The notes below the pieces were generated by a model that worked only from the letters and a program-made list of their open reading frames with translations, was not told the DNA's origin and searched no databases. Shown here piece by piece: positions 3,201 to 36,200 of a stretch of DNA of 64,000 bases; position 1 is the stretch's first letter, and each line of letters starts with the position of its first letter. This DNA is from Allacma fusca. Lineage: Eukaryota > Arthropoda > Collembola > Symphypleona > Sminthuridae. The stretch covers positions 30,389,378 through 30,453,377 of the forward strand of contig OX359248.1 of assembly GCA_947179485.1 (NCBI GenBank), read 5' to 3'. The position numbers and the translations under genes were made by a program.

Positions 3201-6200
3201 GCACAGAAGCTCTACTTTAAAAATATTTCAGACAATTTTTTTTTTTTTTGCATGGAATGTTTTGCAAGTTTCACTACTTCGCTGAGCTGATAGCGATAGA
3301 TATAGGTAATTGAGTAATAATTATAGAGATATAGCTGACATATGCGCTTGCGTTTGGACTGCGCTCTTTTTTTTTGGTATATATCATATTAATGCTATAA
3401 GATATGATGGAGCATATATAGATATGAGTATAGTTAAAGGGGGGACAGTAGCAGTATTGCAATTGGGCAAAACACACTAAGAAATTCATATATAGTGAAA
3501 ACACATTGGAGATGTTGCGAAATTCACGAGAAGCTGCTCATATAATTATATATATATATATATAGATGTAATACATATTTAGCTTTGTTAAAATTTGTTT
3601 GCTTCAAACTTCAAAATCAAATCAAATTTTTGATAGTATTTATAATTATTTTTTTGTGTCAAGAAAAACAAAAATCAATCAATCACGCTATCACGTAAAA
3701 TAAATAAATAATTTGAATAATAAAAAAGAGTTTTTTTTTTCTCCTTTAAGAGTACTGTCAGGAGATGGCAAAGAAATTTTAAAACAAAGTAAATCAGCAG
3801 TAAAATTAATTAGTAAAATATGTGGGAAGAGCAAATATATATTGAGTTGATCACGAAACACACAAAATTTTGAAAAATGATATATAGATAGCTGTATTGT
3901 TGTTGTGGGGGGACTCAACAGACAATACTGACCGGAAAAGTAGCATGAGTCCTTGGAAGAAATTTCTAAAGTTGTTATGACGAGTGATTGATGACTCTGG
4001 GTTCAAGTCTATGTTACCGAAAACCTACGAAGAAAGGAGAAAAGCAGAGACGAATGTAGTCATACTTTGTTTTGTTTTTTACCCAGAGAAATCGCGCCGT
4101 GTATATAGTTCTACACACTGGAGCAGTCCATAAATCCTTCTAATATTAAAGTCAACTGTCATTTTTGGTTTCAGTTCATTCACATATCATTAGCATCCGA
4201 AATAATTCTTATGGAATTGCTATCCCAGAATTTTCAATTATTGTAGAAGAATCCCCGACTAATAGATCTATTAAACTCTTCTAAAACTATAGTTTCTAGA
4301 CAAAATTCCATAAAACTAAAATCAATATTCGAAACTTGTCCTCCAACTTGTAGGTCCACTGTCTAAATTTCAAGAGGGGAGATCCTGTTTTGATATAATT
4401 ACACTGTTCCTATGACACAGTTTAGTATCCAGCGGAATAGTCAACTTCTGAGTCTGAATATCGGACAGTTTAAAAGTGTTTTTTTTACCTCAAATTATGG
4501 TGCCTTTATATATATCTATATATTTAAATATAGCCGTAGTTGTATAAAGCATTATTTCAATTGTTTGATATTATTTGAGTAGGAAATTAATAGCAGCCGA
4601 GCTCCTCATATGAAAGGTTAGTTCTAAGGGAATCGTACGCTGCTAAATTCTCACTACAAACTAACACACTCCACACATTACTACGGTCTTAATTCTAATA
4701 TATGTATTTATATGGAACCTCGGACTATCCACACAGGCCTATCAGAATACGGGATTTATCTAGAACGGAAATACTTAGATATTTACCTCTACTCTGTCTA
4801 TATGACCGTTCCTAGGGAACCATTTGTAAGTCATGGGAAAATCCATACAATGAAGAACTACATGAAGTACGTCCATACAGCGTAAATAGTAACAAGTATT
4901 CCGTACATATACGTGCCATATATATCTATTTCTAATAATTAATATTAGATCTACAAAAACACAACAGGGTCTATAGTAATATATAGAGATTTAGATACAT
5001 TTAAAGTACAGTACAAGAAAAAAGAAAGTACACTACCGATTGAATACTGGAGATTCAATGAGTACTACAAAAAGAAATCATAGTCAAAGAGTCTCTATAT
5101 AACTCACTAAGCTCTCGCATCTAGTATATTAAGAAAATCATCCAAAACATATACACACTTAATTCCTACGAGTAACGAGCTTTTACGAGTACACAATCAT
5201 ATTGTTTAGTAATAATAGTAAAGACACACTAATAATAAATAATAGTTAATTTAGATACTTGTAAATTACTCTATAAGAATACTTCCAACGTTAAAATACT
5301 CCAAAGAGTCTGTACTGTTACTATAATATATTCTCCAACTGGAAATACCTACTGTTACTTTCTCTTTTTATATATACAGAGCACGAACTATGGGGAAAGT
5401 CTACGACTCAATAACTACTATATAGTAAGTAAAATACTAATTATATAAAATACATAGGCCTAAAAAATCTGCATTTATCTCATGAAACAGAAGTATATAG
5501 GAACTCACAACAGATTCTAAGAGAGCGGAGCGCTGCAGAAAAATGCCATATATATCAATCAACCAACGTGAAACATTGACCGACGGGAACAACTTTTATA
5601 TAAATGTACGTTTGTATGTATATGTATATAATTAAATATATATATACAACTACATACGGAAGAGTTCAAATTACGAGAGTAGAGAGAGAGAGACAGAGAA
5701 AGAGAATGAGAGGTATAGTAATAATTACTGTAGCAGAAGTATAATAAAAAGTATATAATCAATAGATACTGTTTACATATAAATTCCTCAAAAGTGAGAA
5801 TCAACTACTATAAATATAGTAGACTGAGAATTAAATGTAGAAATACTAGAAAAATCCTACGTGGTCGGATTATATAAGTATATGAAATTTCAAAAATTAA
5901 TTAATAGTAAAGGAACAAATGTGTAATAATTATTACAGATTAGAGAAAACACTGTATGGAATATTTATAGTAATTTTGAAAAATTATGAGAAAGAGTAAG
6001 TAGAGGTTTTCAGAATTCAAACAACATTACAGCACGTGGTTTTTGAAACATTCGTGTTGGGAGTGGGATCTTACAGTAATTATATATATATATGTAATTC
6101 CTATTGATTTCTTTTAGTTAAGTTTATGTACTGTATGTAATAATGTGCTCAGCATACAAATTGTATGGATGCGTGTATGTAATTATGTGTGTTTGCGTTA

Positions 6201-33200: not shown

Positions 33201-36200
33201 GAGTTAGTGAAGTAGATACTAAAAAGGTGTACCTATGTATCTATATCTATAATTATCTATGTATACCTATAGTATTTAATTTCTACTCTAGATCCTTACA
33301 AAAGTAGGAACATTGCTCGCAGTACCGCTTGGACAGGGAGGCTCCCTTGATACAGTGGGATTCACTTGGACAAGTTGTAATTAAAAACCTGGTACAAAGG
33401 ATTTAGTCCTGGTATCATGGGAAGGATATGGATCCGCTCTGTTCTTCATACATATGTGGGGAGCTCATTGTGAGCGGAATAAAAGTACAGGAAGTTTCCA
33501 GACCATGGAGAGAGGGGGAGGGGGAAGTTTCTAAAAGAGGTTGGTCATCATCTATAGCCTAATTTTTTTTTTCCTGGACTAAAAATAGCAACTATTTTCA
33601 TGTATATCTATAGATAGATACAGAAGTAAGTACTCTTAGGTTTAACTCTATAGGAAAACCTCTAAGGGTCTAATTCTTTAATGAAATTATTCCTCGTCGC
33701 TTGCAATATGTTTGGGAAAAAATTACAAACTTAAACTCTCCCCTTGAAACTCCAATAAATCCAATGTGACACAATTGTTTCCAATGTTCTTGACAAGGAC
33801 AACTCAGTCGACTCAAAGTCTCAAAACCTATATGGTAGTAGTAGCAGTAGTAGTAGCAGTAGCAGTTGTAATAGTAGGAGCTTCCCCCCAAAAAAATATA
33901 GAAAAAGTTGTGTGGGGTGTTTATTCAAGGGGAAAAAAAATCAAATGAGGGAAATTTTTGCCACGTGGAATCCATTTATTTTCTAGCTAGCTATAGACAA
34001 AGTGTGTATATGTACACCCAGGAGCTACATACATGAGTACAGGGAATGAAAATCCATGAGACATGAAAAATCGTAAGTTAAAACGGATTACATTTAATCA
34101 AGGGGAAAAAAACTTAGGAGTTAATCATGTTTGCCAACTCGGCAGTTGATGACATCAAGAAGAGGGAAAGCAGTCTAGTCTCCTTGGGTTGAAAGGGATT
34201 GGAGGTAATGTCCTCGATAAGGGTACAACAAAATTGGGCAAAAATCAAAGAAAGTTTATTTCATGGGAAATTCTACAACTACTACTACTATTACTATTAC
34301 TATTACTACTACTACTATACTACTGTTACTGCTGTACCTACTCCAAGGAGTAGATGTATAGTAGGTAAGATAAGAGGGGTGAAAACTTTCATTAATAAAA
34401 GTTTCCTTTCAAGAACATCATCATCATCGTCATGAGACTAGGTGAGTTTAAGCTAGTATCCGTTTTATTACCGTGTATAATAATTTATAGTGAGGGTATG
34501 TATCTATCTAGATACATACAGCACATAGAGATACATCCTCCATATAAATACTGTATTGGATCACATACATAATACAGCTTATTATTTTATGTATCTTTAG
34601 TTGTTGGCCGTATGCAAACAAAGCCAGATAGATAGATACATAGTACAAGCACAAAAAAAAAACTACTCCTCGTCCAGAGAGTCAGAGAGAGAAGGAAAAC
34701 TGTCTAACTGACTGACTGGTACATGATGGACTCGGGGAAGGCATGCAATGTCTTGGTTTCTCTTCTCATCAAAAACAACCGGACTCACTCGGTATCCTGG
34801 AAACCAGTTTAAGTGGTCGGAGCACTCGAAAAGAGCGGAGCATCCGTAAGTCGACCACTTCCACTTTTGACTCGACGAACAGCGTCATCGACCTAGCTTT
34901 TCCACAGAGTTGTAATTTGTGAGTGTGTGCATGTGTACATGTGGATACGGGGAAAAAATAACCATTTGCAAATATTATTCATCAACTTTAATCTCCTCTT
35001 TCCTGCAGTACATACAGCTCCTCTAAATTACATTTCCTCGCACACATCTTACTATTTTTTCTAATTTCATGCCTTGTTTTTTTTTTTTTTTTTTTTGGTT
35101 AACACTTAATTTAACCCGGGCTCCCTAGTCTGGGCCCATAGTGTCTGAGCTATGTATATACATATGTATACATATGCCTGGGATGTAATTATCTGAATAT
35201 TTAATTATGTGAAGTTCTCTATGCACACACCCCACTCAGACACATTGGATGATTTAGAGCTCCTACTCTAAATCTAGTAGATACACTTAAGCATGGTCAT
35301 ATGTATAATCTTGTATCTACTAATTGTACGTAGTATGTAATTACATAATTACATAATTATGTATATGTGGATGATGTACAGGGTTGTTCAGGAGCCAATT
35401 AATTCAACTTGAATCCTCCACTCCGAATCAAAATCTGCACAATCCACCCAAAGAAAAAATACAGTAGTAACCTGGTACTTACATTACGATTCCTATTATG
35501 AAGCCTAATTTAAAAGATAGATCCTAATTTCCAGTAAGTAGAAATAAAAGTATAGAATAAATCCACTTAAGTAATAAGAAATGCAAGTTTGATGCATGAC
35601 TTTTCCCTGACCTGAAGCTTTTTCTGGAGAGGAAAGGAGCCCAGTTCTGGAAGTGCACTGGTAAGGAATCCATTGACATGGCTTTAACCTTCCCTAATAA
35701 TATAAGCGCTGATTGGTGCAACTTGTAATCCTATTTGAAGTCCCTCACAGTTAACTGTCGGAACTTCCCTACCTCATCTCGAGAATAGGAATACACCCCA
35801 ATAGTACCTAGTTGTGTCCTCCCCCTATAATTGCAATGTCACCGAATGGAGTTCCCTCCCTTGTATTTAAATTTCTGCATCATCATTAGAGATCAGAGTT
35901 GTTGAGTAAGAGGATGCTACGTGGAGGAACAAAGGGGTATACAATGTCCTCACACCGAGCAAGAAGAAGCCTTATGAATCATGCAAGTGCGGATGGGAAA
36001 TTGAGACATTCTTATGCAACTCGGGGTATGCCGCACTGGGAATCAAACACGTATGTACTTACCTATGTCAGGAGGTGCAGGAGTCAGTCCATGCACTCAC
36101 ATACCATCTAATCTTACAACATTGGACAATTTATGGTGACCCGCTAAAAATCCACACATAAGATGCATGACTTGAGCACATGACTACTGAGCATAAAAAA

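Follow-up and report, generated by a model that had tools for sequence, protein, structure and literature searches.

We found that the Cav2 calcium channel gene of the springtail Allacma fusca very probably contains four clusters of two mutually exclusive exons. The gene lies on the minus strand of a 64,000 nucleotide stretch of contig OX359248.1 (assembly GCA_947179485.1, positions 30,389,378 to 30,453,377), which we call the window and from whose first letter all coordinates are counted. Four segments of the channel are present twice, and we name the 5′ copy in gene direction a and the 3′ copy b. The IS4 pair (IS4a, 34789..34892; IS4b, 29532..29635) encodes the S3–S4 loop and S4 of domain I, the IIIS3 pair (IIIS3a, 19964..20076; IIIS3b, 18168..18277) the end of S2 and S3 of domain III, the IVS2 pair (IVS2a, 13833..13943; IVS2b, 10127..10237) the S1–S2 loop and S2 of domain IV, and the IVP pair (IVPa, 6645..6736; IVPb, 3933..4024) the S5–P loop and P1 helix of domain IV. 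A sequence-only reading of the window had proposed these eight exons, and our direct check confirmed their positions, borders, phases and lengths. The a/b copies measure 104/104 (IS4), 113/110 (IIIS3), 111/111 (IVS2) and 92/92 nt (IVP), entry and exit phases are equal within 4/4 pairs, both copies sit between the same two constitutive exons, and all eight have an AG acceptor, a GT donor and no stops. That reading had counted only IS4 and IVS2 as direct changes to the voltage sensor; both stand, but S3 is a voltage-sensor helix as well, so that three pairs belong here. The fourth pair was correctly placed in the pore region, although its exon comprises the S5–P loop together with the P1 helix, the filter exon coming immediately after it.

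The copies of a pair share 19/34 (IS4), 23/36 (IIIS3), 13/37 (IVS2) and 18/30 (IVP) amino acids and 58/102, 68/108, 62/111 and 57/90 nucleotides, respectively. In tblastn searches of the window they found their partners with E values of 9.8e-8 (IS4), 6.4e-15 to 6.8e-15 (IIIS3), 2.7e-6 (IVS2) and 1.1e-10 (IVP). Homology between the four repeats of the channel was also detected, with the two IIIS3 copies matching the IS3 exon (E 1.2e-8 and 2.3e-8). All eight copies, however, scored higher on their partner than on any other site of the window, ruling out four-repeat homology alone as the source of the pairs. Read directly, both copies retain the S4 arginines, the F..E...K pattern of S2 and the WN..D of S3, motifs with established roles in channels of this type. 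IS4a carries an additional arginine before IP (VSRIP), giving it a net charge of +4 vs +2 in IS4b, and the filter exon CATGEAW downstream of the IVP pair is present as a single copy. A search of the whole window with all 28 exon peptides (E below 0.05) gave no fifth pair. The matches outside the query exon were the partner copy or an exon of another repeat, with the one exception of a plus-strand match at 6183-6275 (E 0.016), which is interrupted by a stop. Likewise, no second I–II exon was found in the window with the I–II linker exon E7 and two myriapod I–II variants, rather than fly I-IIA, as queries.

Both copies of each pair are under coding constraint, which is weakest for IVS2b. Between a and b we obtained dN values of 0.42 (IS4), 0.25 (IIIS3), 0.50 (IVS2) and 0.32 (IVP), with dS values of 2.2 for IS4 and 2.7 for IVS2; for IIIS3 and IVP, dS was too high to be estimated. 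The third position is the same in 9/34, 12/36, 15/37 and 11/30 codons, respectively (26-41%). With conserved amino acids and synonymous divergence close to saturation or past it, the duplications are old. Profiles of the two forms, built without the window sequences, assigned 8/8 copies to the expected form with margins of 7.6 to 27.1 bits (own vs other form: IS4a 71.8 vs 45.3, IS4b 70.1 vs 43.0; IIIS3a 88.7 vs 69.4, IIIS3b 94.3 vs 73.1; IVS2a 73.6 vs 59.4, IVS2b 51.6 vs 44.0; IVPa 71.1 vs 51.9, IVPb 79.9 vs 59.7). An assignment by global score, with the two copies in the window as references, called some IVS2 and IVP segments differently; the profiles took its place. We also built trees from the corresponding segments of database proteins (48, 32, 29 and 37 per tree). 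In 4/4 trees a single branch divided the labelled a rows from the labelled b rows, with supports of 95/76 (IVS2), 100/100 (IS4), 97/95 (IIIS3) and 91/73 (IVP) and with 14, 6, 0 and 8 unlabelled rows left uncounted. Within the IVP tree, a rows from chelicerates and from pancrustaceans both lie outside b but form no joint supported clade. Database models that contain both copies in tandem run a-then-b in 22/22 cases (21 proteins), as in the window: 18 of them at IVS2 (11 species, 7/18 being isoforms of one moth), three at IS4 and one at IIIS3. The whole of domain IV scores similarly to human Cav2.1 with either IVS2 copy (456.9 with b, 454.4 with a). Duplicated, interchangeable exons, as first proposed, are therefore supported as the best reading, the copies being old, intact and conserved by form in other arthropods.

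We scored the forms in 148/205 database proteins, not counting margins under 5 bits. The 57 unscored proteins comprise 16 from molluscs, annelids and an echinoderm, 11 other named ones (mites, ticks, spiders, a scorpion and one cut name) and 30 unnamed ones. Since the proteins were clustered at 90% identity in the database, which shows few isoforms per species, counts of species with both forms are lower bounds. Both forms occur in at least 7/79 called species at IS4 (only a in 4, only b in 68), at least 3/81 at IIIS3 (59 and 19), at least 24/80 at IVS2 (42 and 14) and at least 6/61 at IVP (15 and 40). All four pairs together are known here from the A. fusca window alone; no other species among the scored proteins showed the full set. 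In chelicerates "both" may reflect gene copies, the Varroa X2/X3, Limulus and Argiope P0142/P0174 proteins being 69%, 83% and 60% alike, and the IVP segments of butterflies are intermediate between a and b. At one site or more, annotated isoforms with either a or b are found in Daphnia, shrimps, cockroach, butterflies, mosquitoes and bees. The Daphnia pulex models X9/X10/X11 are 97.9-99.4% alike and differ at IIIS3 and IVP. Models of the same gene differ at IIIS3 and IVS2 in D. carinata, at IVS2 in Penaeus chinensis, at IVS2 and IVP in Macrobrachium, at IS4 in Periplaneta and Papilio, and at IVS2 in Colletes and Lasioglossum; in P. japonicus the models X8/X6 differ at IVP. The representative protein of Folsomia carries IS4a.

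This distribution bears on the age of each pair, for which a comparison with other arthropod Cav2 loci had been proposed. IS4a is found in the centipede Strigamia (a then b), the tick Ixodes hexagonus and the mite Oppia (where the segment is cut short), IVS2 runs a-then-b in three spiders, and spiders and a tick have a-like IVP forms. On this comparison of proteins, the IS4 and IVS2 pairs predate the arthropod crown, that is the split of chelicerates and mandibulates. The IVP pair probably predates this split too, on weaker evidence, since none of the chelicerate cases was a clean single gene that has both forms. Among the proteins examined, IIIS3a was confined to pancrustaceans, the chelicerates, myriapods, molluscs and annelids of this set having IIIS3b. 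This limit is provisional because the region search with IIIS3a returned one protein only (90 with IIIS3b), and the IIIS3 pair is provisionally dated at least to early pancrustaceans. Insects proper and decapods in the sample have only IIIS3a, while Daphnia and springtails keep IIIS3b too; the former groups thus appear to have lost the ancestral copy.

We infer that the two copies are used exclusively in A. fusca, each message taking one of two versions at IS4, IIIS3, IVS2 and IV S5–P/P1. The choice would alter three of the four voltage sensors (I, III and IV) and the pore entry, with the S4 arginines, the S2 charge-transfer pattern, the S3 aspartate and the selectivity filter kept whichever copy is used. 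The lengths of the IS4, IIIS3 and IVP exons (104, 113/110 and 92 nt) break the frame with both copies or with neither, and double inclusion or skipping at these sites would lead to a frameshift and presumably to decay. Steric exclusion by a short intron is ruled out, the introns between the copies measuring 5153 (IS4), 1686 (IIIS3), 3595 (IVS2) and 2620 nt (IVP), as is U2/U12 incompatibility, since 8/8 donors are ordinary GT. The 12 introns that flank or separate duplicated exons span 337-6741 nt; of the 15 constitutive introns, 14 measure 98-890 nt and one 3565 nt. Scored against the 19 constitutive sites of the gene itself, the acceptors gave a/b values of -0.0/1.7 (IS4), -0.9/5.5 (IIIS3), -1.2/0.5 (IVS2) and 2.6/9.4 (IVP). 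The a acceptor thus scores lower than its b partner in 4/4 pairs, and in three of them lower than any of the 19 constitutive acceptors. The scores weakly suggest that the b copies are the default and the a copies regulated. By analogy, IS4a and IS4b would act like fly IS4A and IS4B, setting activation voltage and targeting, while the IIIS3, IVS2 and IVP pairs, judged by their position, would tune gating and permeation.

Several observations weigh against four exclusive clusters. The sole same-species protein found, the partial Allacma model P0133, uses IIIS3b and IVS2b, no A. fusca transcript with an a copy was seen, and IVS2b is fast-evolving (branch 0.81, profile margin 7.6 bits). Together with the three 5′ acceptors below the constitutive range, these points would fit a relic, that is, one copy of at least one pair that has kept its borders and open frame but is unused in this species. 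We consider this very unlikely, because each copy keeps the conserved residues of its own form despite synonymous divergence near saturation or beyond, and because a-forms appear in the isoform models of many arthropods and, for IS4, in the Folsomia representative. These isoforms of the relatives are database gene models whose read support was not checked. The trees rest on 30-39 columns with row labels set by eye from resemblance beforehand, which makes them a test of coherence and not a discovery; the profiles and the tandem order are less circular checks, and both agree with the trees. The acceptor contrast is also weak: the IS4b and IVS2b acceptors are low too (ranks 3 and 2 of 19), the IS4b donor is the weakest of all, and the pyrimidine count does not make IIIS3a the weaker acceptor of its pair (10 in IIIS3a vs 9 in IIIS3b, of 17).

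If the exclusive exons were chosen together as coordinated sets, the gene would yield far fewer than 16 channels. The a copy does lie 5′ with the lower-scoring acceptor in every pair, and the accessible part of PMC9741552 suggests coordinated splicing for three vertebrate Cav1 pairs. Models of Daphnia pulex, however, show 3/4 IIIS3 × IVP combinations (b,b; a,a; a,b), and the fourth (b,a) occurs in a D. carinata model, which makes coordinated sets rather unlikely to us. The free combination into 16 channel cores that the sequence-only reading had put forward is thereby partly seen, though only in these other species. A different concern is that IVS2 may not be strictly exclusive and that some messages contain both copies, with two S2 stretches or as a regulatory dead end. 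At 111 nt, the IVS2 exons are divisible by three, so that the frame gives no protection, and the 18 scored models of 11 other arthropod species carry both copies in frame. Yet double models exist at IS4 (3) and IIIS3 (1) as well, where a boundary must shift, showing that automatic gene modelling can produce them, and an extra S2 would be expected to break the topology of the repeat. We regard messages with both IVS2 copies as quite unlikely. The chance of an assembly artefact or a recent independent duplication is practically negligible: no supporting point was found, nucleotide identity between the copies is low at all four sites, and the copies group with the same form in other arthropods. 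Assembly duplication in particular is rejected, the copies being too different.

Mutually exclusive pairs, our preferred reading, are embedded in a gene that is the Cav2 alpha-1 subunit of a springtail. Its core (1551..42803, minus strand) was assembled one exon at a time on the basis of open frames and AG/GT borders and has 24 exon positions, or 28 exons with both copies counted, from E1 (42552-42803) to E24 (1551-1965, proximal C-terminus), all on the minus strand; the all-a form measures 4569 nt. The frameshifts within a copy that would mark a pseudo-exon were absent, and the all-a and all-b messages are both open from E1 to E24. Four six-transmembrane repeats each have one glutamate in the filter (MEGW, GEDW, GEGW, GEAW), in agreement with the EEEE rule as given in the available part of PMC4436565. 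Against structures in the PDB the model scored 1973 (Cav2.1), 1969 (Cav2.2) and 1935 bits (Cav2.3), well above Cav1 (at most 1464), Cav3 (575) and Nav (518), and for this reason the original assignment to Cav2 holds. The best two whole-protein matches are springtails (Orchesella dallaii, 84%; Folsomia candida, 81%). The deposited same-species fragment P0133 agrees with the model at 982/982 residues with one 5-residue gap, confirming the exon chain that it covers. This gap lies at the E7/E8 junction, where two in-frame acceptors are found 15 nt apart (22818-22833). The outer one, used in the model, adds GFPRA and the inner one is used in P0133, pointing to possible minor alternative splicing.

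The window ends before the C-terminus is complete, and the N-terminus reaches further upstream than the ATG of the model. At 42804-42959 the open frame continues with a close match to the Orchesella N-terminus, so that the true start is probably further upstream. The single I–II linker exon E7 (26399..26676, minus strand) contains the Cav-beta binding stretch, whose role is in part documented in PMC9741552. The domain IV selectivity-filter exon (CATGEAW; 2335..2503, minus strand) is constitutive and follows next after the IVP pair. The II–III linker (20719-21201, end of E10 to E11) is very short, in agreement with the deposited fragment, and leaves no room for a long synaptic-protein site of vertebrate type. 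In addition, the G+C content is 31-35% at 1-16000 vs 38-40% at 20000-64000, and GA/TC microsatellites create long spurious open frames.

Mutually exclusive exons are a known kind of variation in calcium channels; the combination of four sites seems to be undescribed, as do two of the sites themselves. For fly cacophony, the same gene, the accessible text of PMC11828482 gives only two mutually exclusive sites, IS4 and I–II, and that of PMC12370356 names the same pairs (IS4A/B and I-IIA/B). According to the former, IS4B is needed at active zones, IS4A gives a lower-threshold transient current, and IS4A has one additional positive residue. The springtail IS4 pair, with its 5′ copy carrying the extra charge, corresponds to the fly pair by order, charge and position. 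By contrast, IIIS3, IVS2 and IVP are absent from the two sites in the available part of PMC11828482, and the fly I–II pair was not detected in the springtail window. According to section 16 of PMC9741552, cacophony has undergone three tandem-duplication events, of which the I–II one goes back to crustaceans. In the I–II segment of two myriapod Cav2 models (P0146, centipede; P0204, millipede) we observed a divergent exon (EFANEKGRVERRTAF...) unlike the usual form, possibly a version of fly I-IIA.

That the fly IS4 pair was known had been said from the start, but the IVS2 pair also has precedents. The available part of PMC5818475 describes one mutually exclusive Aplysia Cav2 pair at IVS2 with counterparts in Crassostrea (oyster) and Octopus, and its Table 1, as far as accessible, lists no arthropod there. 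Segment and one-of-two logic are the same. We also saw two IVS2 forms in tandem in Nucella and differing IVS2 forms in Haliotis species (among the molluscs and annelids P0121-P0164). The mollusc second forms, however, lie outside the arthropod b clade in our tree, making a common origin with the arthropod pair no more than a possibility. Section 16 of PMC9741552 further lists three tandem-exon pairs for vertebrate Cav1 (CACNA1C/D) and a single pair for CACNA1A/B/E, and notes that no two of the ten human and fly events affect the same exon. The likeness to Cav1 lies in a single four-repeat calcium channel having several mutually exclusive exons. Alternative pore exons in a four-repeat channel are also known from NALCN (exons 15a/b or 31a/b; available part of PMC4436565). 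There they change the selectivity residue, whereas IVP ends before the filter, which stays constant. For the IIIS3 pair, the IVP pair in Cav2 and the arthropod IVS2 pair, no paper was found in the one open-access library searched, subscription papers such as the genomic work of Peixoto and colleagues from 1997 being outside its scope. The annotated isoforms of public databases already hold these exons implicitly.

In summary, knowledge of presynaptic Cav2 splicing in arthropods comes largely from Drosophila, with two exclusive sites described. We consider it moderately likely that the Cav2 of the arthropod ancestor had alternative IS4 and IVS2 exons and probably an alternative IV P1, that pancrustaceans added IIIS3, that the springtail keeps all four and that the fly set is a partly reduced remnant. 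Exon choice in arthropods would then do what vertebrates do with Cav2.1, 2.2 and 2.3. The four-site scheme can be tested directly in Daphnia, shrimp, mosquitoes or springtails. If it is true, arthropods would be able to adjust a synaptic calcium channel through splicing at its pore entry and at three of its four voltage sensors, and the pairs would offer natural, evolution-tested sensor variants for structure–function work.

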